Below, in pieces: positions 1 through 48,690 of a DNA stretch of 64,000 bases (the stretch's first letter is position 1; each line of letters opens with the position of its first letter). The notes below the pieces were generated by a model that saw only the letters and a program-made list of their open reading frames with translations, ran no database searches and was not told the origin of the DNA. The position numbers and the translations under genes were made by a program. The DNA is from Anadara kagoshimensis (Eukaryota > Mollusca > Bivalvia > Arcoida > Arcidae), in the NCBI GenBank assembly GCA_021292105.1, contig CM037857.1:39470916-39534915 (forward strand). Reading direction: 5' to 3'.

Positions 1-517
1 GTTTAGTACTTATTTTGCTGCCATATTTCAAAAGCAATTTCACAATTTCTATTTTCCGGCTAAATATGGCTGCTTGAAGAGCGGTAATACCCCCCTGTTG
101 AAACAGGGAAGCTAATTTCTCACCAAACAGAATATCCAAAACATCATCGATGTCAGAGTATTCAGAATCATTATTTTCATAGTCATCGTTTTCATACTTC
201 CTATATTCACTTGCCGTTTCTATGTACTCGAGGTTGGGTTCTTTCTCTAAAATATTTTGTATTACAGGTAAAGACAATCCTTTGCCACAAGCCGTAACAA
301 GAGCTTGTGATAGTTCTCTAACGTTTATATCAAAATTTTGTAAGGCAGTTAAAACAAGAGTTTCTTTTCGATAAAATACTGCCCAGTAAAAAAAGGATCT
401 CGCGCAGCAAATCATCTTTACAAGATCACTTAGGCTCTTGTCCATATTTGTATCATTTTGAGACTTTCCTGAGGTAGCCAACAGAAATTCTCTATCTTCC
501 CAGGCTTGATGTTTCAT
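1..517 (-). CDS. Ankyrin-repeat segment, frame-shifted from the NTPase exon, runs off the edge
   Basis: Reading the minus strand from an ATG at 517 gives 172 codons with no stop to the window edge. The end of this stretch contains GGITALQAAIFSRKIE followed by IVKLLLKYGSKI, a clear ankyrin repeat. Before it lies an acidic loop (ENDDYENNDSEYSDIDD) and a helical region with CARSFFYWAVFYRKETLV. nSTAND3 proteins in invertebrates commonly carry ankyrin repeats directly after the NTPase module, so this is very likely the C-terminal part of the same protein. It sits one base out of frame from the exon at 526-1664. The two frames are both open between 526 and 544, so a single-base indel there (assembly error or real mutation), an unseen short intron, or two separate products would each explain it. 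Confidence 0.72.
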   Translation of the reverse strand, partial: MKHQAWEDREFLLATSGKSQNDTNMDKSLSDLVKMICCARSFFYWAVFYRKETLVLTALQNFDINVRELSQALVTACGKGLSLPVIQNILEKEPNLEYIETASEYRKYENDDYENNDSEYSDIDDVLDILFGEKLASLFQQGGITALQAAIFSRKIEIVKLLLKYGSKISTK

Positions 518-3500
518 GCATTGTTTTAAATTTTCTTTTCTATTTCAGTGTATAATCTTCTCCATAACATGGGATACATGTTATGCGGAATACATATAGC
601 TAAAACATCTCTTCCTTTCTTCCATGCTTGAGTTTTAATTCTTTTGTTTATAAACTTCAAATCCATGTATCTTAGTGCGAACTCTAGATTTGATTTTGAA
701 AGGGAATAGCAAACTGCCTCTGATACTGTCTCGTGATGAAAAACAAACGACCCATCAGGTACTTGTCGTACATACACTGTGTTCATACATATCAATGCCT
801 CTTTCATGATTGAAAACGGTGTATTATCCGGTAAACCGCAAACCCTTATCAACGTTTTGGTTTGTTTATGTTTTGGATTCATATCATTAAGAAATGTTTC
901 AGTGAGGTTACCGCCCTCCATTGCCATTAAGGCCAGAACACAGAATTTATTCTTATCAGAGAGTCTGAACCTTTCGATTTCTGAATTCAAACACTCAATG
1001 GGATTCTTGAAAAAAGACAAACCTTGTTGATAAAGAAAAAAACTTGACGTAAAAAGTTTGGCGCAATGGGGAAATCCATGAGGTGCACATGTGTAACTAA
1101 TACGTTTAATTGTGCTTTTATCTAATTTATAATTATTTAACTGTAGATGTTTATTCAATATGTCTCCCTTTTCAAATTTAGAAAGTTCAAACTCTTTATG
1201 TGATAAGTTGATGATATACTGAGATTTAAAAAGAGAAGTTTTGTCTAGAAATGGTTTTATCTGTTCTATTATGTAAAACCTAGATGTAAAAATAATATAA
1301 ATGTTACCATTGCTACCTTTAATAATCCGTTCCATGTTCTCGAAACGTGAAATCCATGGTTTAGATTTCATCTCATCATATACATACGTGCCGAATACAT
1401 CATCAACCATTACAGCCACTTTTCTTCCTTTCCAACCTGCGATGGCTTCCCAATGTTCTGGTGTTTGGCAAATGAAACATGTTCTCTTATTTTTGCTGTA
1501 CTCAATCAGAAGACGTATTGCTATTGTGGTTTTACCATCACCGGGTCTGCCTGTTACTGTAATAAAGTATGAACTTTCTAACTCATCCTTAATTTGTTTA
1601 TACGCACATGTTGGAACGAACACTTCTTCCTCTTCATAATTTTTCATTGCTATCCGAGTTTGTTCTGAAAAAGATATAATTGATAGTTTTTAACTAATAA
1701 ATGCTATTAAAGTCGGTGATTGTTTGATTCAATCTTTCAAATGTTATCCATTATTTAGATAATTTGTTAATTGAGTTATTATTTCTTGAAAAGTTATAAT
1801 ATTCTATAATACACCAGGCGTAATTGTACTCAGAGGTTTTAGAAAATGTAATGATGGTTCCAATATACTAGTACTAGTTGAAGAAACAAAAGTGTTATGT
1901 TAATCATATAATCTTAACAACAGGCACCTCAATTAAGGAACCAACACTATATAGATTTATGATAGAAACAATCAAGCAAGACACGACAAAAAGACATATC
2001 AAAATTTTGGAGCTTTGAATATATAATGCCCTTAATATAAAACAAACATTGGAGTAAATATCTAATGGTCAAGATGTAACATTTTGAGGCCACCAACTAT
2101 CATTGGTATTTAACAGTCAGAGATTTTTAAAACTGAATGACAACCTTATTTTTTTCGAACAATTTACCAACAATCCTAACATGTTATTGTTATCCATAAT
2201 ATTTTACGTAATTCAAAACAGTAATAGTGATAATAGGACAATATACTTTTTTCAAAGAACAATGTTGTATGAATATGTTTGACCTATATGCAGCGTTAGT
2301 ACTGACAAAATGAAGACTTGTCTGAACTTAAAAAGCAGACCAGTGCATTTCAAAGCATGGGTTAACGCTCACATTACATATCCTATACATAGATTTAATG
2401 GTTAATGACATTAATTAAAGAGAATGTCAAACTGTTCTGCAATTAGGGGCCAATTATATGAAAGGATGTTTGCAAATTAATTATAACTTTTCCTGAGAAA
2501 ACTACATAAAAATAATTGCTGCAGTATAATTTTCATTAACAGCTGAAATAGTAAAAGAAAAAAGTATTAACATGAAAAACTAGGCCATTTCAGTTTGCAT
2601 CTGAGACCTTGCCCTTTAAATGCATGACCTTCATTCATAATATGAAAATGATTGTTATACTGTTTATAATTCTAATACACATGTCAACAAAAACAGTTTC
2701 CAAAACAACTAACCATTTTTGTATTTTCCATATATTACCTTGACCTTTGACCCCTGACCTTCATTCATTTATAAAAATAATTTCTATGCCATTACAAACA
2801 ATATTCTAATATACATGTCTATACAAAAAGGTGATACTTTTTGTGATAATAAACCATTCATCTTTTGCACCTGTGACTTTGATCTTTGAACCCATGACCT
2901 TCATACATATATCAAAATGATTGTTATGCGATTACATACACTACTCACTTATTCATGCCAATATAAAACAATTAAAGATTTAGAGATGATTAAATTTTTC
3001 AGTATCTGTTTGCAACTGTGACCTTGACCTTCGAAGCCATGACCATCACTCATGCATTAAAATGATCGTTAGGACAATTCCGACAGTATTCTTATATACA
3101 TGTGTAAACAAATAGCTTATAGTTTTTGAGATAATTAATCATTTTAGTGTTTGTTTGCACCTGTGACCTTGACCTTTGAACCTATGACCTTCATCTATAT
3201 AACAAAATTATTGTTAGGCCAATGCATACATTATTCTGATATACATGTCTATATTAAAAACGTTTTGAGATAATTGCAGTATTAATTGCACCTGTGACCT
3301 TTACCTTTGAATCCATGACCTTCATCTATATATCATAATGAACTAAAATATTATGATTTATCACATACCAATAAAATCTTACTATAGCGATACATTACAT
3401 TTTCTTGCCATGTGATACAAAGGTCCGTATCGCACATGTGCAAAACAATATTCCGTATCACCATATTAGCCGAAACTCTTTTAGGCGAATTCCCTTTTCC

Positions 3501-4843
3501 GATAACAATAATATCACGTCATTCATTGGTTATAATTTTGACGTCATGACGTCATGTTAAGTTGGGAGAATTTTTCTAGTTGGGAGAATCGCGGACGATG
3601 TTAAATAATTTTGTAAAATCAATGTTTGTTTTTTAATTTTTTCCCCAGTGTTTATAATGGTATAAGTAAAATGTAAACCAATGATGTTTAAACGAAGAGT
3701 TATCTGTTGTTTTTTAATACTTCTTTATCAGTTTTTCAATTCAGGTATCCTATTTTTCGAATCAGATAAAAATCAAAATAAAATAGTTGATTGTGAATTT
3801 AATGACAGATTTAGCCAAAGAAAGCTTTTGCATTTAGTTTGGTAGGATATGTGATAAATACAAAACCACAAAATGTGGTTTTCTGACGTAGTTGATCGCA
3901 CTCGTTTATTGTGCGGACGCAATCGTGTAAATGTATCCGTCCGCACAATAACTCGTGCAATCAGATACACCAAAAAACCACATATATGTGGTTTTGCGTA
4001 TATACATGCCACTACAACAAGTTTACAGCTTTTGAGATAATCAGGTATGTCAGCAGTCGTTTGTACCTACGACCTTATCCTTTGAAACAATGACCTTCAT
4101 TCGTGTAACTTTATCGTTGTTCCAATTACCTACAATATTCTAATATACATGCCTAGTTTTAAATTTCCATATATATTGCCAAATCCACTAATTCTAGCAA
4201 TTTCCCACTTTAGTACCTTGTCATTACCCAATGCCGACCCCTACAGCTACGATTTGTGCAAATCTGAAAAGAGGTGACCCAAGTATATTTAAGATGGAAT
4301 ATCTAAGCTGTATCTCTTATATGTTCAGAGGAGAGAATTGTAAAAGAGATTCACACTTCCCCTCTTTGCGCAAGTCTAAAAGCCCTAGACAGCATTATTG
4401 CAAAACATCATTCAATTTGGCCGAGTAGTTTTGGAGGAGTTGATTTTTACACAAGACGCACGACGGACGACGAACGGCGATAGACGGCAATAGATCATCT
4501 GAGCTAAAATATTTAAAAAAAACTTAGAAAACTATTCGTTATCGAATAGTATTTTGTTGGATCTAACAAAAATGAGTTTATTTTTTGAAAATTTCAGATC
4601 GTTCAATAGAGTTAAAAATTTTATCCTAATGCATGTAAAATATTACATTTTAGAACCCGTTGTCTTGGTAAAAAATGTCACTGGAAAAGTTTTGATATAT
4701 CTTAAAAGATGTATATTACATTGAAAAAGAAATAGCAATAGGTAAAAATAAGTTAAACAATTTTCAAAGAGAATGGCAACAAATCCACCTTATTATTATG
4801 TAGAATACAAAGAACAATCTTGTAATTATAGTGTGAAAATAAA

Positions 4844-4881
<38 letters not shown>

Positions 4882-7800
4882 CTGTTCAATATATATGCTC
4901 TTTAAAATGTATGTATCGTTGTGTTCAATATATATGCTCATCAAAATGTATGTATCGTTGTATTATCGTTAGTTTTTGTGTTCAATATATATTGAATACG
5001 AAATACACAAAATTAATATTAAAAAAAACTAAAAAAGAAACGAATTACCTTCTTTTTAAAATGATTTGTTTTTGGCAAAATAAGCCATATGCATGTTTAA
5101 TAATGCACTATAGAAACGAATTACCTTCAATAGTAGAAATTTATGAAAATATGTAAAATGTAATGAAATATAATACAATGACTTTAGGAATAAATTAGAT
5201 ACAATAACAAATATTTTTTAAGGTTTGAAAGTTATGTAAGTTACTCCGAAGGCAACAAACGATACAATTTACAGAATAGACATTATTTCACAGTCCTTTG
5301 TGCGCATGCCAAATATTTTGCACTTACGTTGTGTATCGGTCAAACTGATTCAAACAACGTCTTCCTTGAAATTTACTTTCTATTGCCCTAATATTTCAAT
5401 TAGCATTGCGTATTTCATCTTCCAGCTTTAGGCTTTTGATATTCACAGGACTATAAATGGCACTTTATCGCAACGATTCACTATGTTTGAATATCAATAT
5501 CGGCAATACACATCTCGGAACTTTAACCCGGTAAATAAAGTAGCCTCCATGTTCTCAGGTAGCTTAGTATCGAAAGCCTTTTTGGTTGATGATCAAGTTT
5601 TTTTTTTTTTTACAAAATTACAGTCTATCGAAAGTTTCCATGTATAAATCGAATAAGATAGTTACTCATAATGCACGATAGAATTTCTTCTGGACTATTT
5701 AACATGCCTTAGTGTCTGTCCAGTGGATATGCATTGACTCAAAGACAATATTGGTTACGTAATACACAACTACGTCACGTATTATACGTATTACGCCATA
5801 AATATCGTGTGACACATGAACGTTTAATTTTGTGGTCGAAACGCTCGAAAACAAATTCCAGAAGTGAACGCAAATAAACCTTTAAAAAATTCCAGTATTA
5901 AAAAAAATGAATTATTTTATTTTGAATTTAAATATAGTTGAACCCTTAATTTATATGCGCATTATTCAGTTTGACGTGCAAAGGGTTGGTATTCATATTG
6001 ACTATGAACGCCAATTCAAAACAGTACAATTAAGAATTGACATTTTTTCCTGGTTCATCAAATAATAAACCAGATTTTAAAACTAGCAAATATAAAATGA
6101 ACTGCTTCGCAGTTCATCAGATTTGCTAGTTTTAAAATCTGGTTCATTACTTGATGAACCAGGAAAAAATGACAGTCAATTCTTATATTTACAATTTATT
6201 CTTTCTTTACGAGAGCAAGATTGGAAATACCGTTGAATGAAATAAATTCAAATGTTTTGAAAAAGAATTTTTAACGACGGACGTAAGCTGGACATGGAAC
6301 AGCTGTTCAAAAACATTAAGCCCCGCCCATTTGACGTCATGTCTGGAAGCAACAAAATAGGTCATCAATCTTGGATAATATTTCAAACAAATTTTATTTC
6401 AGTCAATGACAAAAATTACATATTCATATTTATGGTCAAGTTACAGTTATTGAAGGTAGAGCTTGTTAAAAAAACAGACTTAATAGACGACAGAGTGCTT
6501 GACATCTGGACTTGCGGATTGGTATTCGACTCGGGAGTATTGGTATTCATGCGCGATGTGAAAAACCGATGTTTATGCGAATCATGAAAAAAAATCAAAC
6601 TGGGTTCAACGTTGAAGTTATTTTTCTATTGTAAATATTTGTTAATTATTACTAAATCTGTTTTAAAAATAGTTCAATTGTCTTTAAATATTATGTAAAT
6701 CGTGTTATGCCAAAACAATTTTGACTGGCGAGTACACTATAATATTATTATTAGTCCGTAAGGTGACATGAGTAAAAAAAAAGTTATTTCGTATTTTTGC
6801 AATAGTTATATTGTATTTTCGAAACAGTATTTCGTATTTTCGAAATAGTATTTCGTATAATCGCAACAGTCATTTCGTATTTCCGAAATAATATTTAGGT
6901 ATTGATATCTTACCTTCTAATGTTTGTATCCTTATATCAACATCTTCCTTCATTCGATTGTGTGTTATAGTGATGTTATCGCCGATAATACAACCAGAGG
7001 CCCCCTTGACATAAGTATTCTTGGACTGAATACTTTTACTTTTCTTGACAACTGCATACCTGTAAAAAAGATCATTCGAAAAACTCATTAGCATACAAAT
7101 ATTTAAATAAGTGTTGAGACGGGGTCTTCATTTTAATAAGTAAAACCATCATTATCGATATCGTTTAGATTCCTCAATCACTTTTTTATTCACTAATATG
7201 TATGAAAATATATCAATTGGTTCCCTTTTCATGACTAGTATAAAGACGGCTATACAAATGTATAGCCCTGTATTTGTATAGCCCTGTTGAAATAGAAAAA
7301 CCAATGCCCTCAATTCCCATGTAAAACTAATTACCTGTTTTTGTATGATGAACTATAGGGTGCCAAATATATCCATATTAATTTCGGAAACAGAGATATC
7401 ATACTTTTCAACAATTCTGTGATGGCGGTTATAAAGCTCACTTGGATAGATGACATTCACGTAATCTCCGCCAGTCTTTTCCCAGATGTAACATAGGTCT
7501 TCATAAGTTTGTTTTATATGAATAAAGAAACAAATCAGAGAGCAATGACACGCGGTTGTGCTTATTGTTATACCGATTGTTTGTTTGAAATGTATATAAT
7601 AAACATATCAAATATTATGTCTATCAGAATATCTAACATTTTCATAGTATTAGTAGTATTGTTTGTTCGAATCCGTAATGTTTTTGACAAAAACACCAGT
7701 ATCATTGTTTATCACTAGATTTCTTTATCTTGTTTTACAGATTTATAAAAAGAGTGAAGAATTTGCGTTAGTCAGTCTTTAAATTAAGAATGAGGGATAT

Positions 7801-10800
7801 TGAAGTAAAGTGTAGTAAAAAGATTTTATCGTTTACACGCGATAAAGTATTAGAAGCAAGCTGTTTAGGGAATTTTCTAAAATGATGTAGAATCCACATT
7901 TGATTGATGCCAGATGTAGAATATTCTTTATCTGAATCAGACTGAATACCATCTTTGACGACTGGCAAAATTTGTGTTAGAATTACGGATAACGATTTCG
8001 TAGTACATTTAGAAGAATCTGCTATATAACTTTCATGTATGCATTATTATTAAATTTCCGAATCAAAAACAAACATATCAAACCAAAATCCCACAGCTTT
8101 AAAGCTGGCAAATAAGGTTAAACATTTGACCTCCCACCAAGGAAGTGATGCTAATTAAAGAAAGTAATGCAAGCTTTCGTCTTTTAGATTGAAAAAGAAA
8201 GACCCAAAATCTCATCTATGGTTGGGAAGAATTTCAGCTCTGTGAATTTAGTTGTGTATTCACTTCGGAATTCGCTTTCAATCTACTTTACGTTCCCGTA
8301 TCACGTGATTATCTAGTCAGCAATTGAACACATTTTAGTTTTTTTCTCTTTTCACTGTCATGTTCCTGCCTTCATTTAATATTGTTTTTACTCTTTTTTC
8401 TTATATAATTTACCTGAATGTTGTTTCTTTGCTAGTTGTCCTTGCACCTTTAATGGTTGATAACTTGGTTGATTTCTTGCTAATAATGTTGTCTGCTTTT
8501 GATTTGACCATTTGCCTCCTTCATTGTCAAAATCCGACTCTCCACTCTCTGATGATGATCCGTCAAATGACGTATGAAGCACATCACTGTCTAAACTTGA
8601 TTCTTCACTGCTGACATCAATCACTCTGATAGTAACATCTTCTGAAGAGGTCGGTTTATCTATGGATCTTCAACAAAACAATAAGACATTTAAGATCGTA
8701 TGCCTATGTTATTCAATATACAACATCAAATCTTACTTGGAAAACTGATAATTCCTAGGAAATTGAAGTTTTCCTCGCAGCATCATTAAAAAAAAAAATA
8801 AAATCATCAGTTACGTTAAATTATCAAAATTTGACGCGATTTTCAATCGGGCCAAATATTATTGTTACTGGAAAGTACAAAGTCATAAGATTTATACATG
8901 TATGTCCTATATTTTTGTTCAACAATAAAAACAACTGTTGGAAGTGGTTTTCATCAAACTCAATGTTATTTCGTATATCAAATGTTCAGTATACCATAAA
9001 TCTCTGTTACTAATATAAGTCAATGTATATTTATGGTATATATTGCAAAACAAATAAATAAAATAAATAAACAAATAAACAAATTAATTAATTAATTAAT
9101 TAATTAATTAATTAAAATGAACAAATGAAAAGAATGACAAGAGTCACAAAGACTTATTCCATATTGAAGGTACATTTGGAACAACGATTACGATTCGTAC
9201 TTACGGCGGTTTTGTATCAACTGTATCATGTCCAACTTTAGCATGCACGGTTTCCAATGTTCTATGCTGGTCAATTTGATCATTAATAGTTCTAATGTGA
9301 TCATCTTCCTCGTCTCTATTTACAATTCCAACGTGCTCATCATGTTGATCTCTTTTTACAGTTTCCATATAGTCATCTTTCTCACCTCTTTTTACAGTTC
9401 CAATGTGGTCATCTGAGTACTCTCTATCTTCAGTTCCAAGGCGGTCATCTTGATAATCTCTATTTAAAATTCCATCTTTATTTACAGTTAGAAGGTGGGC
9501 ATCTTGGTCATCTTTATTTACAGCACCACGGTGGTCATCTTGGTCATCTATGTCTACAGTTCGATGTCTGTCATCTTTATTTACAGGTATAAGTTGGTCA
9601 TCTTTATTTCCAGCACCACAGTGGTCATCTTGGCCACCTATATCTACAGTTCCACGTTTTTCATCATTATTTACAGGTAAAAGGTGGTCATCTTGGTCAT
9701 CTGTATTTGCAATTCCACGGCCATCATCTTGGACATCTGTCTTCGCCGTTTTAAGAGTGCTATTTTCGGTACATTTATCAATAATTCTAAAGGAATCATC
9801 TTCTTCATCTTTAATTACAAAGATATCATCTAATTAACATGCATGTAGCAACTATTAGCAACAATCAAAATACCAGATACATGTATTTGTTATCAGACTT
9901 TCAAAATTCTAAACGTAATGTGTTTAACTTTATGTTTTAACTGTATTTTCCAGTTTCAAAAATTTTATTTTGCTTTTGAAATTGTGATTTAGACCGGGTT
10001 TAACTTTATGTTTTAACTGTATTTTCCAGTTTAAAGAAATTTATTTTGCTTTTGGAATTGTGATTTAGACCGGTTTTAAACAGTTTAAAATGTAAGGTTT
10101 GTGTCTTTATATGTTAAGCTGATTAGAAAGTTACATATAAAATAAGATAAATAACTACCCAATATTGTATTGTTCATTGAACTCCATAATACCATCAGAT
10201 GATATCGATGTAATCAACACTAATATACTCAACAAAAATGTTCAGGACCGCATCATAAACATGGACACATTCCGTATAACGTTAATCATTTAATTCCATC
10301 TTTACAATTCTCGTAATTTCACTAATGAGATTTTAAGTTTATGCACAAACACATCATTTAAACAAAAAAAAATGAACTAAATACAGATGAATTTTATACT
10401 TTGCAGTTTTTAGATTTTTGTTTCGAATTTTCAATCGGTGCCTAATTTTTTTGTCGAGTATATTTCATAGCGGTATCATATTTTGCTATATTAAAATATG
10501 ATATGCTATCAATCTGACAATCAACATACACTTGTAATCTTTGATGAGCCCAAGTGGTATACAGGTGACAAGCAACAAATAAACACAATGGTATGTCGTC
10601 AACTTGATAACTTTACGACCCATAATTTGCAGGATGATATTTAGGGTTATTGAACTGATATTGTGAAACACTTCCCGAGTTGACTCGATCTTTGCACGAG
10701 CTTGCGAGTGCAAATTTCGAGTCAACGAGGGACAATATTTCACAATATCAGTTCAATAACCAATTTATTATATAATAATACATTTCATTTACTTCCCACT

Positions 10801-11725
10801 AGTATTTCATATCAAAATACCATTTCGTCTTACAATACAAAAAATATAACACTAGTTCTTGTATACGGATATAAGAACTAGTGCAATACGATAGCAACAC
10901 AGTCATGACGTCTTCAGCCATGTTACAGCAATCATATGACGTCATAAATGACAACTCATGTAACAAAGCGTGCAATATGAAAAATTGATTCGGTAAACCT
11001 CGGACTAGAACCAAGTTAGCGCGAAAATATCGATATTTATTGCACGTTACCACCTCAGGATTTACCGTTTAATTTCCATGTGATGCATATATTGCTATAT
11101 AATAATATAGCATATCATATCCTGTGACATGCAACAGAATTGGACAATGATGTGGATGGTCGTAACTATGATAGGTCTTTAAATCTATGCCGTATACCTT
11201 AAACTGCTCGTGAATATACTACTATAATTGCAACGTACCTGTAGAAATAATAAGGATTTCCGGTCTAAATGTATTCTCGGCACTGCTTTTCAGTGTTGGT
11301 TGTGATTCAAATGCGACGCCTCTGTGGTCTTGGTTACCTGAAGTTGTTGATACCAGCGTACTTTGACCAGATTCATAAATTTCCGTTGACAAGTTTAAAT
11401 TTTCATCTTGAGTTTTTACTTTTCTTTTATAACTCACGTGTGCTGTAACTTCCGGTTGTGTTCTTCGTTCTGCTGTATCTGTTTGCAAGCCTTTTACAAG
11501 TCTTCGCAGGACAGACTTCTGGCCTAAAGGGATTTCTAGAGCTTGCAAGTCTGGTTCATCAATAGCAGATATGGTAGCAATGTTATTGTATCCATTTTCC
11601 AACAAAACCTGAAAAGTATGTTCCGTCAAACCTAATATCAAGGCATCCTTATAATATGGTTGGATCTCTGGTGGAATTGGGATCTTCTTTTTTATTTTCC
11701 TTTTCTTTTTCAACTTCAACGGCAT
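1..11725 (-). CDS. SAM-like / acidic-repeat / nSTAND3 NTPase / ankyrin gene (partial, multi-exon)
   Basis: Gene-level model on the minus strand. Coding exons in transcript order are 11725-11239, 9829-9205, 8667-8414, 7416-7335 (tentative), 7059-6914 and 1664-526, followed by an ankyrin-coding frame from 517 to beyond the left edge. Donors are GTACGT, GTAAGT, GTAAAT, GTAATT and GTAAGA. Phases across the introns are 1, 2, 1, 2, 1 and all agree; the exons to 526 sum to 2733 bases, a multiple of three. The product would have a lysine-rich N-terminus, a SAM-like helical domain, an acidic repeat linker, a Ser/Asp-rich linker, an nSTAND3 P-loop NTPase and ankyrin repeats. nSTAND proteins are NLR-like regulated oligomerising NTPases, so a cytoplasmic sensor or scaffold role is inferred. 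The start of transcription and the 3' end are not seen. The order of domains is firm; that all exons belong to one transcript is inferred from phase agreement. Confidence 0.7.
526..1664 (-). CDS. nSTAND3 P-loop NTPase exon
   Basis: Large exon with acceptor TTTTTCAG just before 1664 and an open frame to a TAA at 526-528. Counting from the first Met at 1647 (373 residues), the nSTAND3 entry motif FVPT is at residues 10-13. The Walker A loop GRPGDGKTT is at 33-41, Walker B VAVMVDD at 77-83, and a sensor-1-like IIFTSR at 118-123. This spacing is typical of the novel STAND 3 family, NLR-like ATPases with large copy number in molluscs. The frame is also open upstream of that Met to the acceptor (QTRIA), and the acceptor phase matches the exon at 6914-7059, so the Met at 1647 is probably internal and not the true start. 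The stop at 526 falls where ankyrin repeats begin in another frame, so it may not be the real protein end. Confidence 0.88.
2580..4515. mobile_element. TGACCT-array interspersed element with nested insertion
   Basis: Degenerate monomers of about 140 bp follow one another from 2590 to 3360 and resume at 4020-4160. Each contains 'acctgtgaccttgacctttgaa', a 'catgaccttcat' segment and a 'ctaatatacatgtctat' segment. The 3' part (4230-4515) ends in a 'gacggacgacgaacggcg' low-complexity tail. I have seen this tail on common repeats in bivalve genomes, but this is recollection only. It has no coding capacity. Class is uncertain (non-autonomous DNA element or composite repeat). Confidence 0.55.
3345..4012. 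mobile_element. Insertion within the TGACCT array, with hairpin and CRE-like palindrome
   Basis: The 140-bp array stops near 3345 and restarts near 4012 with the next part of its monomer, so the intervening 0.65 kb looks inserted. It carries TGACGTCATGACGTCA at 3539-3554 and a duplicated GTTGGGAGAA (3561-3590). It also has a hairpin whose arms (about 3894-3914 and 3934-3957) contain 'tattgtgcggacg' and its complement, flanked by 'aaccacaaaatgtggtt' and 'aaccacatatatgtggtt'. Exact ends and a target-site duplication were not resolved. Confidence 0.4.
6031..6186. repeat. Foldback inverted repeat, arms about 75 bp
   Basis: 'taagaattgacattttttcc' at the left is matched by 'ggaaaaaatgacagtcaatt' at the right, and the pairing continues inward through 'ctggttcatcaa', 'ccagattttaaaactagcaa' and 'gaactgc' to a centre near 6107. 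It is followed by 'tatttacaat...ttctttctt' and a TGACGTCA at about 6331, as are other hairpins in this window. Likely the end of a non-autonomous foldback or MITE-type transposon in the intron. Confidence 0.7.
6914..7059 (-). CDS. Exon joining linker to nSTAND3 module
   Basis: Acceptor CTTTTTTACAG and donor GTAAGA flank 48 whole codons. The peptide runs YAVVKKSKSIQSKNTYVKG, then ASGCIIGDNITITHNRMKE and DVDIRIQTLE. The end of this exon plus the start of the next reads as a heptad-like helix leading into the FVPT entry of the NTPase, as is usual just upstream of nSTAND3 domains. The phase at its 3' end (1) matches the acceptor at 1664 exactly. Confidence 0.68.
7335..7416 (-). CDS. Tentative 82-nt exon inside a reverse-transcriptase remnant
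   Basis: Without an exon here, the exon at 8414-8667 (ending in phase 1) cannot join that at 6914-7059 (needing phase 2). This segment has an acceptor (CCATCACAG), a donor (AAAAACAG|GTAATT), no stop in the required frame and exactly the right phases. It would encode ELLKSMISLFPKLIWIYLAP and then YSSSYKN. The same DNA read in another frame matches the C-terminal end of a Penelope-like RT (HHRIVEKYDISVSE), so if it is used it is an exonised transposon fragment. The acceptor's pyrimidine tract is modest, so this is a hypothesis based on phase and splice-site fit. Confidence 0.38.
7370..8250 (-). mobile_element. Penelope-like reverse transcriptase remnant, internally incomplete
   Basis: Minus-strand translation gives an N-terminal-type RT segment at 7968-7768 (VKDGIQSDSDKEYSTSGINQ) and a C-terminal-type segment at 7500-7370 (YNRHHRIVEKYDISVSEI). 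The middle is missing or replaced. At 8080-8190 there is a copy of the dispersed non-coding repeat that accompanies this RT family elsewhere in the window. It is an old, broken fossil. Family assignment to Penelope-like elements is from motif memory; another non-LTR-type RT is possible. Confidence 0.5.
8414..8667 (-). CDS. Exon encoding Ser/Asp/Glu-rich linker
   Basis: Bounded by acceptor TTTGTTGAAG and donor CAG|GTAAAT. It supplies 84 whole codons, entering in phase 2 and leaving in phase 1, consistent with the exon at 9205-9829 upstream. The peptide is acidic and serine-rich (SSEESSLDSDVLHTSFDG, then SSSESGESDFDNEGG) and then turns basic and Gln-rich. This composition suggests a disordered, possibly phosphorylated (CK2-like S-x-x-E/D) linker. 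No known fold is seen. Confidence 0.6.
9057..9115. repeat. ATTA microsatellite
   Basis: A perfect run of the tetranucleotide ATTA (nine or so units) preceded by degenerate AAAT units, in the intron between the exons at 8414-8667 and 9205-9829. Confidence 0.9.
9205..9829 (-). CDS. Exon encoding acidic tandem peptide repeats
   Basis: Open through 208 codons between an AG acceptor (TTAATTAG) and a perfect GTAAGT donor, starting in phase 1 and ending in phase 2. The translation is a degenerate repeat of about 12-24 residues built on the pattern D-D-Q-D-D-H-x-G-x-V-N-K/R, with units such as DDQDDHRGAVNKDDQDAH. It is strongly charged (Asp, Lys, Arg, His) with no hydrophobic core, so it is predicted to be a disordered or coiled linker. 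At the DNA level it is a minisatellite within a coding exon, so length variation between alleles is likely. No known domain was recognised. Confidence 0.65.
9925..10080 (+). repeat. Two tandem copies of an RT-associated dispersed repeat
   Basis: The segment 'tttaactttatgttttaact' through 'attgtgatttagaccggg' occurs twice in a row (about 76-80 bp per unit). It matches the 3' flank of the RT remnants at 20940-22060, where a similar 'ttttgcttttggaattgtg' motif is present. It lies in the first intron of the nSTAND3 gene and is non-coding. Confidence 0.6.
10645..10892. repeat. Foldback element: 45-bp inverted arms plus a second small hairpin
   Basis: 'ggttattgaactgatattgt' at 10645 pairs with 'acaatatcagttcaataacc' ending at 10761, and the pairing continues inward to 'gagttgactcga/tcgagtcaacg'. 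A second hairpin, 'actagttcttgtatacggat' with 'ataagaactagt', lies at 10852-10883. TGACGTCA occurs nearby at about 10936. The arrangement matches the other hairpins here and suggests one family of foldback or MITE elements. Confidence 0.65.
11239..11725 (-). CDS. First coding exon: polybasic N-terminus and SAM-like domain
   Basis: The chosen start is the ATG at 11725; an in-frame stop lies upstream and short out-of-frame ATGs occur in the leader. The N-terminus is lysine-rich (KLKKKRKIKKK, residues 4-14), which could be a nuclear signal or a membrane-binding patch. Residues about 24-81 (from YYKDALILGLTE to LRRLVKGLQ) have the pattern of a SAM-like helical bundle: a xLLENGYxNIATI segment, then DEPDLQALEIPLGQK before a final helix. 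SAM domains mediate homo- and hetero-oligomerisation. The rest is Ser/Thr/Gln-rich linker. The exon ends at 11239 on a GTACGT donor in phase 1, matching the next exon. Confidence 0.7.
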
Positions 11726-19319: not shown

Positions 19320-20290
19320 TATTAAATATAAACCAAACGGACTAGAACAATAGGTAAAGACATAAATCAAACGGCTTGCCACCTCCTTTATGACGGGCTA
19401 GAACAATAACTAAAGACACAAACTACTCCCTCTGATTTGACAAACCAGAACAATAGCTAGACACATTAACCAAACAGCCTACCTCCTCCGGTTTGCAAAC
19501 AAGAGCAGAACAATAGGTAAAGGCATAACCCAAACAGCCTACCGCCTCCGGTTTGCCAACAAGAGCAGAACAATAGGTAAGGACATAAACCAAACAGCCT
19601 ACCGCCTCCGGTTTGCCAACAATAGCAGAACAATGGGTATAGGCATAAACCAAACAGCCTACCGCCTCCGGTTTGCCAACAAGAGCAGAACAATAGGTAA
19701 AGGCATAAACCAAACAGCCTACCGCCTCCGGTTTGCCAACAATAGCAGAACAATAGGTAAAGACATAAACCAAACAGCCTACCGCCTCCGGTTTGCCAAC
19801 AATAGCAGAACAATAGGTAAAGGCATAAACCAAACAGCCTACCGCCTCCGGTTTGCCAACAATAGCAGAACAATAGGTAAAGGCATAAACCAAACACCCT
19901 ACCGCCTCCGGTTTGCCCACAATAGCATAACAATAGGTAAAGACATAAATCAAACGGATTGCCACCTCCTTTATGACGGGCTAGAACAATGACTAAAGAC
20001 ACAAACTACTTCCTCTGATTTGACAGACCAGAACAATAGCTAGAGACATTAACCAAACAGCCTACCGCCTCCGGTTTGCCAACAAGAGCAAAACAATGGG
20101 TAAAGGCATAAACCAAACAGCCTACCTCCTCCGGTTTGCCGACAAGAGCAGAACAATAGGTAAAAGCATTAACCAAACAGCCTACCGCCTCCGGTTTGCC
20201 GACCTGAGCAAAACCGAATGCCATAAACAAAACAACTTACCATCTCTGATTTGACGGACAAGAAAAAAAGCCTACATCCTCCGTTCTGAT
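19320..20290. repeat. 60-bp tandem satellite, about 16 units
   Basis: Units of 60 bp read 'aacaataggtaaaggcataa', then 'accaaacagcctaccgcctc', then 'cggtttgccaacaagagcag'. The central units (19480-19920) are nearly identical; the outer units diverge, with a variant 'gattgccacctcctttatga' repeated at both 19370 and 19960, so a higher-order duplication is likely. Because 60 is a multiple of three, several frames stay open on both strands (a 20-residue repeat such as VGCLVYAFTYCSAIVGKPEA). I treat these as by-products: no start, splice or family support. Confidence 0.9.
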
Positions 20291-25428: not shown

Positions 25429-28400
25429 ATGACATTTAAACCCGGTTCAATACCCCAAGTGTTAAGTAATATAGGTAAGTTTTACCAGACACGCCAACAT
25501 TACACCGGGTTAAAATCCTCAAATATTAAACATAATGCGGTACCGGTATTGTGAAGTATGAAGTGCATTCAATATGACCTTTAGAGATACATGTATACAC
25601 ATGAAACTGGTTCAATATAACACTTAAACCAGTTCATTAAAAAGATAAACATTTTTTTTCAATTTGACATTTAAACCAATTGAATACGACGCATTATAAA
25701 CTGGTTAAAATGGCAAAATTAACTTGTCCAATATGACATATAAACTGGTTCATATTGAACTAGTTCGATATTATATTGGTTCATATTGAACTAGTTCGAT
25801 ATTATATTGGTTCATATTGAACTAGTTCAATATTATATTGGTTCATATTGAACTAGTTAGATATTATATTGGTTCATATTGAACTAGTTCGATATTATAT
25901 TGGTTCATATTGAACTACTTCGATATTATATTGGTTCATATTGAACTAGTTCGATATTATATTGGTTCATATTGAACTAGTTCGATATTATATTGGTTCA
26001 TATTGAACTAGTTCAATATTATATTGGTTCATATTGAACTAGTTCGATATTATATTGGTTCATATTGAACTAGTTCGATATTATATTGGTTCATATTGAA
26101 CTCGTTCAATATAATATTGGTTCATATTGAACTCGTTCAATATTATATTGGTTCATATTGAACTCGTTCGATATTGAACTAGTTCGATATTATATTGGTT
26201 CATATTGAACTAGTTCAATATTATATTAGTCCAATATGACATTTCAATATCGCATCAATCCGTTTTACCAAATAACAATAACGAAAGCTTTGAATTGATA
26301 TCGGTTAGATTATATACTACATGTATGTGACAAAAACCAACATTGACTAACTGAGGCGATTTTTTCTACTTTATTAGGGTGCCAGGATCTGTTAACAGAA
26401 GAATATACACACTGTGGATGGCTTAGAAAGAAACATTTCATCAGTAAATTGAAACTGTTTAGATGTAAGTAATAGATTAGATTTAATCGATAGTAGAGAT
26501 ATATTTACGAGACCTGTTCAATTTATAAGGTAACACTTTTGATTTACACGTACAATATAATCTTTAATTTTTCAGATTCACTCTAACAAATGTTGTATTT
26601 ATGAACCGTGGCAGTAATATACCACTCTACAACGCTTTTATCAACTCAAAAGTGTCTGTGTCTTTTGTATGTACATTTAGCTCTGTTCTCTCTGTTCCAG
26701 ATTCTTCCATTCATCTTTGACGGCTTATTAAGACAAGATAAAGTATAGATCTTTCGTTTCTGTAGACGACGTTTTATGATTTCCTAGATACCGTAATCCA
26801 TTGCAACGCAATCGGGACTTTTTGGAATTACTAGTAACTCAGTAACTGATTTTACATTTATTCAGAAATCCAATGGTTTTCTTAGACGTATAACATAAGT
26901 AGAAGCGGAGTCCTAAAGAAACACTGTATCATTTTTATGGCCATTAAACAATCTTGGAACATCTTTGTTAAGAAATGGTTTAAGAACAGAAATTATGTAA
27001 TAATTTGTATTAACTTTTACAGATTCTCAGCGATGTTTGGCAATAAAAACTGACGCCAGCCCAAACATTAAATTCGGGTGCAAAATCATTATTTTTTAAC
27101 GAACTTAGCAAATAGTTTCTGTTCTGTTAGAAGTAAAAGTTTTTAAGTTTGCTAACCTTTTGTTTTTTAATTTAATTTCAGGGCCTCAGGTTTACGTTGT
27201 TATCAGTAGTGGATGTTTATATTATTTTAGAAGTGAATATAGTGAAAAACCTTCAGGAAAGTTTTCTCTTTATGGATATAACTCGTAAGTGACAGATATA
27301 AAACGATCATTTAACTGATAAACAATTAAAATGTCTTCAGTCTACACACATTAACCCACAGGAGCTAGTTACCTGGCCGTCTTTATTTTGATGTTCGTTT
27401 TCAAATAACTGTTTGTCAAAATAAAACTTAGGGTTTATTGATTTCAAGAAATAAAGTATATATAATTTAATATAATTTTATACAGAAAGAAGAAAGACGT
27501 TTTTCATTTAAAATTTACAAATGAGTTCTATTTTACAAAATACATATAAGTTTTGGCAAGTCTTGTCGAGGGAAGAGCCTGAATTGACTATATTCGACTT
27601 TGTGTACAAGTACGTACAATCAGCTTGATACAAAAAAAACGCGTTAAATGATGTGACGTAACAATTCGTAACAGGAACATTTGTTGTCTGGCGTCAAAGA
27701 CAGAGGGATGTCTAGTTGATTATGAAATGCGCTTGTGTGCATTGTAGAATTCGTATCAGTCAGTTATAAAGATATATAACAGTAGAACTTTGATAACTCG
27801 AAGTACACGGGACTTTGATGATGACTTCGAGGAATCGGGAATACAATGAAGAAAGAAATGGAATGGGACTAAACTATTGTCAATACAGTGTATTAGGTTT
27901 TACCCGGATCTATAGCGTTCTTAATATTTCGTATATGAACAAAAACCTGACAAATACTGACAAAGTATTATATCAGCTATCAAAACACTACATTTAAAAA
28001 ACTACACTTCATTTTCATTCTTTCTTTATTTATTTTTACCAGGGTGCATAGGGCTGATGATATTGATAGAGCCGAAACACAATGGGCGTTCAAAATTATC
28101 CATACACACGCAGATGAATTTAAAACTTACTTCTTTGCTGCATCATCTGAGAAGGAGATGAAGGTATCTTATTTACTCGTCTTTGACCTCTGTAAAAAGT
28201 TAACCACTGCACTAAATTTCATTGTTCCATTATTTGCCATTCAGTGCAAGTGTCCATCCAAATTTTGTATTTTATAAATAGTGACCTGAATATGTGTTTT
28301 TTCATCCTTATTTGGTTAGGTGTATATGTTTTGTTGCATCGTTATGTTAATTGTGTAAATAACAAATAGCTTTGTTGTATTATCAACACGTTTATCTTTT

Positions 28401-31400: not shown

Positions 31401-34400
31401 ACTGATGAGGAATTTTATATTCTGAAACGACCGTCTAGTGCTGCAAAATTAAAACAGATTAAGCAATAATTATATAGACTACATTAATTGTCAGATATTT
31501 GACCGACAGGCTCTGTTTTCTATCACTAGCATCATATTATATTTTTTGTTTATATAACTAACATTTGTCTTGACATCCATATTCACTTCTGTATGGAAAT
31601 GTGGTATTAATATCTTATTTTGTTTCATCGTACATCTTTTATAGTGCTTTGTCTATTTTTAAGTATATGTATTCAACCCCACATTTTCTGGTCTATTTTC
31701 TATTACAGCATCTGATGATGAAGTGGTCTTTTTTCTATTACAGCATTTGATGATAAAGTGGTCTATTTTCTTTTACAGCATCTGATGATGAAGATTTACC
31801 CGAGAAATATGTGCCTGAGAATCCAAGAATATCAAGGGATTCAGGGTACCGCTCTTCTTTCGAAAGACCACCACAACCACTTCCTGATTGTGCCAAACCT
31901 CCACCGATTCCAGAACGCCCGGAAAAGAAACAAAAAAAGAGTAAGCAGAAAGAAAATTGAATAAGAACTATCAGATAACACCTGTATTTGTTATACCATT
32001 TCGAGGTCGTGTCGATATATTGGAGTTCGTGTTAACTCAGGAGTTGTATGTAATTATCAGTGGTCTTCTGATGTTGTTTCATTCCACTCGAGTGTCGCTA
32101 TAGAAACTTGCTATGTTTTCTTATCGTACTGTCGTACTAATGAACAAATAATGGACCGGTCCACGTACAATGTGTTTATGACAGATTTGAATACAGATTT
32201 TTCGATCTAAAGTCTGTTTTCCTTCCATCAGGCATTGATGACAAAACCACGTATGCGCCCACCCCCCAAAAAAACTGTCTTAATAATAGAAAAGCTACTG
32301 TGAACGTATTTAATTTCGCGTGTATTTATTTTCGAGATATATGAAATTTAGACATATTTTAGCTTTTTTTTAAATATGCACTTTAACACATTAAGATAAT
32401 ATAATTTGCGCTCGGCCGCGGTTAAGCGAAAATTAGTACATCGCGAAAATAAATACATTGACAGTATTGGAAAAAGTTATGTACTAAACATACACTATAA
32501 AGACACCAGGAATAAAAAATACGAGTTTTCAACGTACCCCTATAAAGAGTCTACAATTCATTTTTTATTATCCATTTAGATTTTCCTGAAATGTAATACA
32601 ATCAAACCTGCCTTAAAGGCAGTAAAATATTATCCCAATGACTCTTTAGTTAGACCATTCAAACTTATTTATAAGTAAAAACCAACTCCCCATAAAGGTT
32701 ACCTTGGATGACCTTTATAGACAGATTTGATTGTACGTATATTGTTTTTGTTAAATAGGGAGTCACTAAAATGTTTTCATGCGTTATCTTTTTCGATTAT
32801 ACATTCCATTTTACTCTAAAAATGTAAAATTTTCTTTATTAAATGTATGTGTTTAAATAGCATCTACTTGCACAGCAGAACGATTTACAAATGTATTATA
32901 TAAACACTTTCAGAGGATCAAACCGAATTTTCAAGTGGAAGGTATATGGGGGAAATACATGTACAGTCTAACCTGTCTATAAGGGCCACTCGGGGGAAGT
33001 TTCAAAAGTGGCCCTTATGGACAGGTTGCCTTTATTTAGAGGTTTGTAAATCCAGTTATGACATCAATATAAATATTAGTTGTAAAAATAGTGAGCAGTT
33101 CTAATTTACTTATTTTATTTGTTAAAATTTTTGTTACAAAAAAGGCATTAGCTAATTTTAACAGAATAATATCTTTGAAAACAATTAAAGAAAAATCTTC
33201 TGACCACACTATTTATCAATCTTTGAGAGAAAAAACCCTTAAAAATCACATATCTTAAATAAAGACATGTTTTCTTTAATAGGTAAGAGCCAGTAATGAA
33301 AACAATAGAAAATAGTATATGTATCATAATTAATAATGAGTAAAAATCTATCCTTAGTGCTTTATGGCTTCATTTGTTGACATGAGGATAAATGACTTGA
33401 GATTGTTTTAAGTTTTTCAAAAAGTTTCAAAAATATACTTTTTAAAAATTCTTTTCTTATCAACATACAGATTTGGTTACATGTACTTAGTTTAATGATC
33501 AATGGTTTAAAGGTAAATAATCAATGTTTAAAATCTAATTTTAGCTTTAAGATTTTTAAAAAACTACATGGCTATTAACATTTTTGCACAAATTTTTAGA
33601 AACTATAACAAAACTTGTCCCAAAAATACGAATAAAAAGTGGCCTTTATAGACAGGTTCATGAGCCATTTTGTACAAAAATATGGTGGCCTCTGGCTCAG
33701 TTGAACAGTGGCCCTTATATAGAGGTTAAATAAAGAGTAAAATGGCTAGGGAAGAATTGAAAGTGCCCTTTATAGACAGGTGGCCCTTATATAGAGGTGG
33801 CCTTTAACACAGGTTAGACTGTATTGCATTAATTTACGACAAAACTTAAAATGCTAAAACTTATAATTTCCTTGGTATGTTGTTTCTTTTTTACTTTCAA
33901 AAGGTGTTCGATTCTGTTGTACATGTATGGTGAATTTTACTTCAAATTTTAGATTTTTTTCCACTTTGCAACTTCGATGAAAAGTTGGACAAAATACTAT
34001 ACACTGATATACAAAATGTATTTTCTCATTACATACCAAGCCGCTTTCTGTCGGATTTTTTGTGAATATGCAGAGGAGTGGGACAAGGTGACCTAGTGTC
34101 AAGTTATTTGTTGTTAGTGCGTGCTGAAATGTTAGGAAAAACTGATTAAAAAGGGAAAAGAAAAAATCAAAGAAATGTCTAATGTTAAAATTACTAGCAC
34201 AATTTGTTAATGAGACCATTTTTATTTAGATGGTTCTTACAACTCTTTTAAAAGTCTATAAATAAATACCTTAAAAATACTTTTTAGTCTAGCAATAAAT
34301 CCAAGAAAGTAAAATAAATTCTAGAGAAACGTTTAACCATTGATTAAATTTTCTGTTAATTTAGATACTTTATACAGAATAAAATTTGAACGAAAATTAA

Positions 34401-37400
34401 CTATATAAAGACAATACATGCAATTTGGAAACCAGAAAATTAACTAGAATATGTAGAATAACAATACTAAAACACTAATAATTTCGAAGCTTAATTACTC
34501 AATTTCTTTATCATACCCAATTTTGTTTAGAATCATTAAATACATTAGTACTATTTAAATACTTTTTACTCTCTTACAAAAACAGTGAGCAACCATTCTT
34601 TAACAAAATCAGTAAGCCGAGATACAAATAATCACAATCACAATCACTATGTTTTTGTTATTTAAAATATTTATATTTATTATTAATGATTTTTAGTGTA
34701 AGATAGTATTTAGTGTGTTATATTTGTATAGTTAGGTCCCTTTGAATGGACTATTTAGCCATTTACTGAACATTACCTCAAGTGACCGTTCAAAGTAAAT
34801 TGTCTAATAACCAGTGGTACTTGTGTCTCTTGTCCTTTTTTGCCTTGGTATATTTATGGTTTTATGTTCTTTACATGTACTATGAATGTTCTTTGTTGTG
34901 TTCACTGTTACAGATTTCATAAACAAATTTGCAAAAAAGCAATCAATAGTATATACATGTGTATTAATTATCTAAACATTAAGCAAACTATCTGCCATTT
35001 ACATGATATGTTTAAATTGTTTATATATTAATTATCTAAACATTAAGCAAACTATCTGCCATTTACATGATATGTTTAAATTGTTTATATATTATTATCT
35101 AAACATTAAGCAAACTATCTGCCATTTACATGATATGTTTAAATTGTTTATATATTAATTATCTAAACATTAAGCAAACTATCTGCCATTTACATGATAT
35201 GTTTAAATTGTTTATATATTAATTATCTAAACATTAAAAGCAAACTATCTGGCATTTATAAATGTTACATGATATGCTTAAATTGTTCAATTTAGAAAAG
35301 AGAAAACAAAAATCTGTTGAAGAGACGTCTCCATCCAATGAATCATCTACACCGCCGACAATAGCTGATCGACCTTTACCAACACCAACACCTACAGGGC
35401 CATCGATTGCCTCAGGTCTGATGGTAAGAAATTTTTATTGATAGCGTTAACATAGCTTATCATTATCATAGTTAAATCTTTAATTTATACCCCTTTGTCC
35501 AAATCGTCTAATGTAGTATAGTTTTGCATTTAACTTAGCAATGGTAGAGCTTTGTAAACAGGCTTAGGGAGCATTTTATGCCCTTTAAATTCCGAGAGCG
35601 TTTGTGATTTTCTAACATACTTTTGTTTTTTTTTTTTCAAGACGATATTATGCTTTTTCATGGAGTTATCCCCCTTTTGTTTGAATATGAAAGTATGGGG
35701 GAATATTGAAGATGTCTGAAAGGGCAATAACATGAATATCATTGTAATGGGAACTGTAATACTGTTTTGTCTACACAATATATATTGGAAATAGGCGTGA
35801 TCCATTAAACATTTTTCAGAACTTTCTAAATAATGATTTAAAGACTTCATAATAACCGGTTATACGATTATCTCCAAAATAACTAGAGAATGTCAACGTT
35901 TTGGATAAAATAACTTTTTTCTATTATTTTGTTAAATATGAGTTTACATTGGAATAGCTTTGGAACTTTTATATTTCTTGCAGGAGGAATTATCAAAGAA
36001 AACCGAACGGTAAGTGATGAATTTAGTTATTTCTACTAGCACCAAAGGGATAAAAAAAGAGTTGAACTATATTATTATTATGGCCAGTTTCTGTATGTTA
36101 TAACGATTTTGCATAAAGTACAATGTATTGCCTAAAAGTAAATCATTTACAATTTGAGCTAAGATTGTGTCCTTCCTATTTGTAAGGATATAGTGACCAC
36201 TAACCTTTTTCAGTTTGAAGTATATATTTTTGTAATTGGACAATGCTAGTTTTTCCCCATGTCTTAAAATAGCTTCGTTACTTTATTTAAGAAATGACAT
36301 TCTGATCATGGTATTTCAGGGGGTAATGAAAGATAGTGTGGCGCGTGCCAAATTCGACGAAGGGCGCGTGCCACACTATCTTTCATTACCCCTTGAAATA
36401 CCATGAGCAGAAATGTCATTTCTTATATTTACAATTCTTTCTTTTAATAGATATGTTGTACCGTGGTGCAATTTTTTCATTTCTGCTTGTGTGATATAGG
36501 GTTTTAGCCATGCGAGATCGGCGTATTTCACATGATCACGTGACTCACTGTGCGGGACATCACGTAATATTGCGGGAAAATTGATACACATCAAGGGTCA
36601 TGGCCCCTGTTGCTTTTTAATGGGAATTGAAATACAATTGCTTCTGTATGTTTCATCGAAGGGAGATACAGTCATATTGTAAATATATAATTACGATACC
36701 ATAAAATAGGGTGTTATTTAGCATATCTTGTGTTTTTTGGACAGCATTTGGTTACGACTTTATTTGGAACGGTAATGCAAATTTTGCAAACTAAATATAT
36801 TAATGACCAGAGATTTATGCATATGAACTTAATGGCACAACCGGTGACTAAAACGCTACCAGTAAAAATACTAAACACCTTCAGTACCAACCACACATTA
36901 ACTATCTTATGGATACAAATAGTTATATTAATCCTTGATTTTTATATACAATTGAACACATGCATAAAGTGCTTAATAAAAATCATTATATCAATAGTTT
37001 TTCATTAAATTTTCAGAATGAATGTATCGGAATCAAAAGGTGGCGCTAAGGGCAAACCGTTGCCTGATTTACCGGTTGAGGCGAGTGCGACAGCGTCTGC
37101 GTCTGCAACAGCGTCTGCGTCTGCAAAAGTTGTAAAGGTTTGTTATTATGTTACTTTTCTATCCTCTGAACCAAATAGTCTCATGGTACCCTATCAGAGT
37201 GTATGGTGTCTTTAGGACGATATTCCTTTCATTGTCATTTTGGATTTATAAAATGGATGATGTGGCTAGCTAGACAGGAGCTGCTTACCCTTTCAAACCA
37301 CATAGCCTCACTTCGCCGGTTGAATTCCCCTGTTACACATAATATTTTCAAAGTGCTTTTGATTGTGATTTGAACATGGATTGGTGGAATGGTAGGTATG

Positions 37401-47939: not shown

Positions 47940-48690
47940 TATGTGGATACAGCTGGCCTTGTCCAAGTAAATTGCCTCCTGTTTCGACGCTGCCTGCGAA
48001 GAACTGGTACGGCGAATGGTACCACAACTACGTCTACTCGGAACCGCATCTTGGAAGTTGACTTTAGGTAACATGCCCCTGTTTCAACGTTGTCTGTGCA
48101 GAATCAGTCTGGCGAATGGTACCACAGCTACGCTACTCGAGACTACATCTTGCGAGTTGAGTGTATATAACATTCCACCTGTTTCCACGTTGTCTGTGCA
48201 GAATCGGTCCGGCGAATGGTACCACAGCTACGTCTACTCGGGACCGCATCTTGGAAGTTGAGTGTAGGTAACATGCCACCTGTTTCCACGTTGTCCATGC
48301 AGAATCGGTCCGGCGAATGGTACCACAGCTACGCCTACTCAGGACCACATCTTGGAAGTTAAGTGTAGGTAACATGCCACCTGTTTCCACGTTGTCTGTG
48401 CAAAATCGGTCTGGCAAATGGTACCACAGCTACGTCTACTCAGGACCGCATCTTGGAAGTCGAGTGTAGGTAACATGCCACCTGTTTCCACGTTGTCTGT
48501 GCAGAATCGGTCCGGCGAATGGTACCACAGCTACGCCGACTCAGAACCACATCTTGGAAGTTAAGTGTAGGTAACATGCCACCTGTTTCCACATTGTCTG
48601 TGCAGAATCGGTCTGGCAATGGTACCACAGCTACGTCTACTCGGGACCGCATCTTAGAAGATGAGTGTAGGCAACATGCCTCTTTCCATA
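47940..48690. repeat. 101-bp satellite, about seven units
   Basis: 'taacatgccacctgtttcca' recurs at about 101-bp spacing (near 48069, 48169, 48270, 48371, 48472, 48573 and 48673). Each unit also holds 'gcagaatcggtccggcgaat', then GGTACC. It is GC-richer than its surroundings. 101 is not a multiple of three, so the minus-strand ORFs here (repeating RFCTDNVETGGM) shift frame between units and are not genes. Confidence 0.9.

Follow-up and report, generated by a model that had tools for sequence, protein, structure and literature searches.

In the 64,000-nucleotide stretch of the Anadara kagoshimensis genome analyzed here (the window; assembly GCA_021292105.1, contig CM037857.1, positions 39,470,916 to 39,534,915), the minus strand most likely carries a single NLR-like gene, of a type that molluscs are known to have, headed by a SAM-like domain. 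In the form that we give about an even chance of being right, the gene comprises this SAM-like head, a long low-complexity acidic linker, an nSTAND3 NTPase and an ankyrin stretch, and continues beyond the first base of the window. We favor a single gene because all parts (exons A to E and an ankyrin open reading frame, ORF; Table 1) share one strand and span no more than 11.7 kb, the donors of exons A and C and the acceptor of exon E being strong; because in-phase open joins exist and the codon scores of exons A and B exceed the background; because the nSTAND3 and ankyrin parts match Pfam families, the NTPase motifs are ordered, and the SAM-like match is accompanied by a five-helix model; and because three papers describe bivalve or other mollusc precedents (PMC8195603, PMC9646362, PMC8998645). 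The window is AT-rich (GC content 0.326, no N), and the locus fits an intron-rich animal gene. A preliminary description of this DNA, made from the sequence alone, had proposed a gene for an NLR-like sensor that combines a STAND switch with ankyrin repeats. This is still the best reading, and its SAM-like head is likely, but the description missed a break in the ankyrin frame and presented an exon chain that is one of several open ones.

The NTPase is the firmest part of the gene, and at the sequence level its identity as nSTAND3 is certain. PF20720 matches the NTPase ORF with 108.6 bits (cut-off 27.2) over profile positions 1-154 of 155. All four elements of the STAND motif list (Walker A, Walker B with an acidic pair, sensor Arg, and GxP) follow one another in order on the minus strand: GRPGDGKT (1551-1528), VAVMVDD (1419-1399), TSR (1287-1279) and GFP (1077-1069). 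Given the ordered motifs, the nucleotide switch looks intact, and the Walker A and B motifs that had been pointed out earlier are indeed there. In PDB the NTPase ORF has five matches with E of 1 or less, the lowest being 0.25, and we regard them as chance; in two collections of viral or prokaryotic sequences, viral_contigs and genome_contigs, it gave 3 and 20 pattern stretches, respectively, none of which was confirmed, a result without bearing on animals. The PADLOC candidate antiphage model PDC-S73 matches the same ORF (529-1689, minus strand) over the NTPase with E=4.2e-14. Membership in a defence system was not accepted on this ground, the match being set down to shared NTPase ancestry; as such it would connect the STAND NTPases of animals with those of bacteria. 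The best PHROGs match of the ORF has E=0.0009 and the best NCBIfam match E=0.00031 (19.8 bits, cut-off 156); the matches in both databases lie largely over the P-loop region and were disregarded. The AlphaFold2 (AF2) model of exon E (pLDDT 33.8) was useless and was not used.

The joining of the exons was assessed with generic splice-site matrices and with a codon score model trained only on exon E and the ankyrin ORF. Donors are strong at exons A, C and D and fair at B, and acceptors are strong at D (7059) and E. Background segments reach the codon score of exon A in 0.76% of cases, that of B in 0.08%, that of C in 2.9% and that of D in 67%.

Several results weigh against one intact gene with a SAM head. 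The best-scoring acceptors of exons B (9786) and C (8641) are out of phase with the preceding donors, and the in-phase ones are weak (-2.6 at 9808 or -3.9 at 9829 for B, -1.1 at 8667 for C). The NTPase is kept in frame by 5 of the 12 A-to-E chains that were tried, namely A-E, A-D2-E, A-B-C-E, A-B-D1-E and A-B-C-D2-E, where the two acceptors of exon D are counted separately as D1 and D2. As to the head, Pfam offers no family for exon A at E up to 1, or, at E up to 10 and with HMMER filters on, for the SAM-like domain together with the Lys-rich start; thus the profile search of the translated exons that had been suggested earlier returned nSTAND3 (PF20720) and Ank_3, and no Pfam SAM. In fold comparison ranked by Z, SAM chains tie with helix-hairpin-helix chains. 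Finally, the NTPase frame closes with K-K-I followed by TAA (528-526), and the ankyrin ORF begins at 544 in a different frame. With five chains open, the argument from exon phase is weak. The earlier statement that the phases of all exons agree does not hold, since the nSTAND3 ORF, which reaches 529, is read in another frame than the ankyrin ORF (544-2), and the upstream chain A-B-C-E is open without being unique.

It is somewhat unlikely, although the best placed of the alternatives, that two genes are present, the SAM-like exon and the acidic repeat belonging to another transcript and the nSTAND3-ankyrin gene having its own N-terminus, perhaps in exon D, in exon E or in an unrecognised exon. 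Such an arrangement would accommodate the gaps of 0.5 to 6.7 kb that set the parts apart, the weakness of the in-phase acceptors of B and C, and the lack of third-position excess in exon B. It would also agree with the ORF of exon A, which stops 5 codons beyond the donor and could be a short stand-alone gene, and with a domain order seen in no relative (the collections scanned being viral or prokaryotic). However, the strong donor of exon A (6.8) and the strong acceptor of exon E (4.6) agree in phase even without any exon between them, and the codon scores of exons A and B are closer to those of the NTPase and ankyrin ORFs than to the background. On balance, we lean towards the SAM-like exon and the NTPase exon belonging to one gene.

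The SAM-like ORF of 179 residues exceeds chance, because at 12-64 kb only 4 of the 6831 stop-to-stop stretches reach 160 residues, and all of them (179-189 residues) sit in a tandem array and a TGA-rich simple repeat. Its nearest sequence matches, found with phmmer in PDB, are the CtBP2 isoform 2 chain (9wbj, E=1.1e-4; 62 chains in 2 entries) and, more modestly, the SAM of Caskin-1 (3sen, E=0.0041). Altogether there are 7 matches at E up to 10, and the four with E below 0.3 are chains of these two proteins; the reversed query has no match up to E=10. To our knowledge, neither Caskin-1 nor CtBP2 is joined to a STAND NTPase. A profile of the query with the CtBP2 and Caskin-1 fragments collects 50 sequences, 40 of them SAM proteins by name and 8 not (the CtBP2 chain and 2eam were counted as neither), a result that is partly circular, Caskin-1 being in the profile. 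A profile of the query and the CtBP2 fragment only gives weaker support for a SAM: it collects 10 sequences, with Caskin-1 at 0.038 to 0.096 beside unrelated chains. Modeled with AF2 without an alignment, the domain forms five helices (pLDDT 75 for the best model, 47 to 75 among the five), and Foldseek places SAM chains in the first three positions for this model, although at E no lower than 0.25. An acidic mid-loop and basic residues in helix 5 were recognized by eye only.

The SAM-like domain of the preliminary description therefore has sequence support at the E-values given above, with a silent reversed query, but no Pfam match; the SAM call is plausible, not secure, and we consider that the head is probably a true SAM. 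It is improbable that it is instead a helix-hairpin-helix or other five-helix domain, in which nucleic-acid or other binding would replace polymerisation. The chains that tie with SAM chains in Z are those of AF1548, Rad51/Dmc1/RadA and NusA; RadA stands at Foldseek rank 4, and NusA is also listed, at 0.36, by the profile of the query and CtBP2. Against this, the top three Foldseek matches are SAM chains, the four best sequence matches belong to CtBP2 isoform 2 and Caskin-1, and the three-fragment profile, for all its circularity, collects mostly SAM proteins. An acceptor-like site at 11667 (score 2.8), inside exon A and just within the SAM-like stretch, would begin an exon inside that stretch; exon A as the first exon is an assumption.

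The ankyrin repeat announced in the preliminary description is real and present in one copy, at the window edge: Ank_3 reaches 25.2 bits (cut-off 22.3), and Ank_2, Ank and Ank_4 stay under their own cut-offs. ORF 544-2 has 110 matches in PDB at E up to 0.01, the best 60 of which consist largely of ankyrin proteins, including many designed ones. Owing to the TAA at 528-526 and the frame shift, the repeat does not share one frame with the NTPase. Over the 40 codons after the break the NTPase frame is interrupted by 4 stops, and the ankyrin frame, over the 39 codons before it, by 3. Because each frame fills with stops past the break, the coding frame seems to switch over some 20 bases in an A-rich run. 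Assembly errors are common in such runs. The simplest explanation is a minor error in the assembly or a mutation; this gene copy would be misassembled at the break or defective, unless splicing removes a poor mini-intron. There are 73 in-phase pairs of sites for mini-introns across the break, and the best 12 of the 73 all have poor donors; the top-ranked one, 593-469 (125 nt), combines a poor donor, TAT/GTATTC (2 of 9 on an ad hoc scale), with a fair acceptor. Codon score averages over these short stretches (-0.098 for the NTPase frame at 594-529, 0.156 for the ankyrin frame at 544-467) give no clear verdict. One may ask if the locus is a pseudogene or haplotype copy, with a protein truncated after the NTPase, so that this copy yields no ankyrin sensor. 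We find this rather unlikely: the TAA in the NTPase frame, an ankyrin frame open only from 544, and the absence of a good mini-intron among the best 12 of 73 would agree with it, but there is a single defect in about 1.66 kb of NTPase and ankyrin frame, the NTPase motifs are present, and the break sits in an A-rich run.

The acidic repeat linker proposed earlier exists as well, in exon B, with a period of 36 bp; its 208 residues include 59 D+E and 28 K+R. Because the differences between units are not concentrated at third positions, the repeats bear no sign of protein constraint, which fits a freely varying tether, and equally a non-coding array. Exon B has no match in PDB at E up to 1. Exon D, absent from the preliminary description, surpasses exon C in its splice sites, but its codon score gives no indication of coding; its acceptor at 7059 joins B to E and that at 7051 joins C to E, both in phase. 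The segment CIIGDNITI in exon D faintly resembles the amyloid RHIM core, taken here as [IV]Q[IVL]G..N.[ML]. It was rejected as a RHIM motif: there is no Pfam RHIM match at E up to 10, and the segment deviates at the Q and N positions. A loose RHIM-like pattern, written post hoc, occurs 4 times in the 119,628 residues of the six frames, exon D included, and the best PDB match has E of 1.7, none of the 3 chains being named as a RHIM protein. It is highly improbable that a linker exon is switched between C and D on a STAND receptor with a polymer-forming SAM head and an acidic repeat tether, D adding a beta-prone, RHIM-reminiscent segment beside the NTPase and thereby a second mode of assembly.

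Table 1. Features of the candidate gene, from its 5' to its 3' end
Feature	Position	Strand	Evidence
Exon A: first in-frame ATG, Lys-rich start, SAM-like domain, donor ACAG/GTACGT	11239..11725	-	donor score 6.8, codon score
SAM-like domain, 69 residues	11477..11683	-	phmmer, AF2
Exon B: acidic repeat linker, 36-bp (12-residue) units	9205..9829	-	codon score; weak acceptors, donor 2.4
Exon C: Ser/acidic-rich segment, possible	8414..8667	-	in phase after B; acceptor -1.1, donor 4.6
Possible exon D	6914..7059	-	acceptor 5.3 (7059) or -2.5 (7051), donor 6.2; open chains
Exon E: STAND NTPase	526..1664	-	acceptor score 4.6, PF20720, motifs; in-frame end TAA 528-526
nSTAND3 NTPase domain	1141..1620	-	PF20720 E=3.1e-31, residues 24-183 of ORF 529-1689
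Overlap of NTPase and ankyrin frames (frame break, A-rich run)	526..544	-	ORF coordinates
Second ORF, one ankyrin repeat at 91-8	2..544	-	Ank_3 E=1.7e-5, residues 152-179; cut by window start

Comparable architectures are found among published immune proteins of bivalves and other molluscs. In the pearl oyster, NACHT genes number more than 200; death or HEPN domains often head their products, and LRR, TPR or WD40 repeats form the tails (PMC9646362). These NACHT/STAND NLR-like proteins share with the proposed gene a variable N-terminal domain, a central STAND-type NTPase and C-terminal repeats, but here the NTPase is nSTAND3, the N-terminus is SAM-like and the repeats are ankyrins. Bivalve TRADD-N proteins have variable C-terminal regions with STAND NTPases, HEPN or ankyrins (PMC8195603), i.e. 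they likewise join an assembly domain to a STAND NTPase or ankyrin in lineage-specific combinations; in contrast to them, the parts of the window that were scanned with Pfam showed neither a TRADD-N nor a death-like domain. In lophotrochozoan RIG-I-like receptors N-terminal domains have been grafted, with a SAM in one species (PMC8998645). McoRLR10, a mollusc gene of this group, resembles the proposed gene in having an N-terminal SAM on a likely immune sensor, but it is a helicase-type sensor and not a STAND NTPase. A literature search for nSTAND3 yielded two papers, with no mollusc in their titles or starts of abstracts, so that the abundance of nSTAND3 proteins in molluscs claimed in the preliminary description was not shown. 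The domain order was not found either, a weak absence, as most subscription papers lie outside the search. The kind of gene is known, and the domain order may be a new variant.

STAND NTPases are nucleotide-dependent oligomerising switches with repeat sensors, and SAM domains often polymerise. Tankyrases, for instance, are reported to polymerise via a SAM (PMC12700824). By analogy, the repeats would sense a ligand and thereby open the NTPase, which, as expected for its family and its motifs, would bind and hydrolyse nucleotide and change shape or oligomerise. The SAM-like heads, held on a flexible acidic tether, could then cluster head-to-tail or recruit a SAM partner, to signal. We only infer that the head could nucleate assembly through the linker, and an immune role of the gene is about as likely as not.

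ARAGORN found no tRNA and Rfam nothing at gathering scores in the window. There are 8 ORFs of at least 110 residues at 14-64 kb, several of which are repeats, and ten ORFs at 28-62 kb have no Pfam match with E below 0.1. On the plus strand, three exons delineated by eye (38702-38765, 39908-39961 and 40611-40757) give an SH2 domain (Pfam SH2, E=4.4e-6) when joined, with a stop behind it; the region 38702-40757 looks like an SH2 adaptor gene. Upstream of these exons there are Pro-rich or acidic ORFs (31757-31957 and 35262-35438, with no Pfam match, and one seen by eye near 37017). Repeats occur in the introns of the candidate gene: a perfect 24-nt inverted repeat with arms 69 nt apart between exons A and B (10645-10761), and, between D and E, a MITE- or hairpin-like inverted repeat (6038-6174; 54-nt arms, 94% complementary, 29-nt spacer) and a tandem repeat with 4.3 copies of a 145-bp unit (2737-3341). 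Further tandem arrays are located at 19446-20200 (60-bp units, with ORFs of 179-185 residues open on both strands), 25746-26227 (31 bp), 34962-35258 (64 bp) and 47973-48680 (101 bp).

At present, the locus adds one more candidate to the shuffled sensors. If one transcript carries all parts, the SAM-like head would join death, CARD, HEPN and TRADD-N as an assembly domain of animal STAND proteins, and the involvement of a SAM polymer in the immunity of invertebrates could be tested on this gene.

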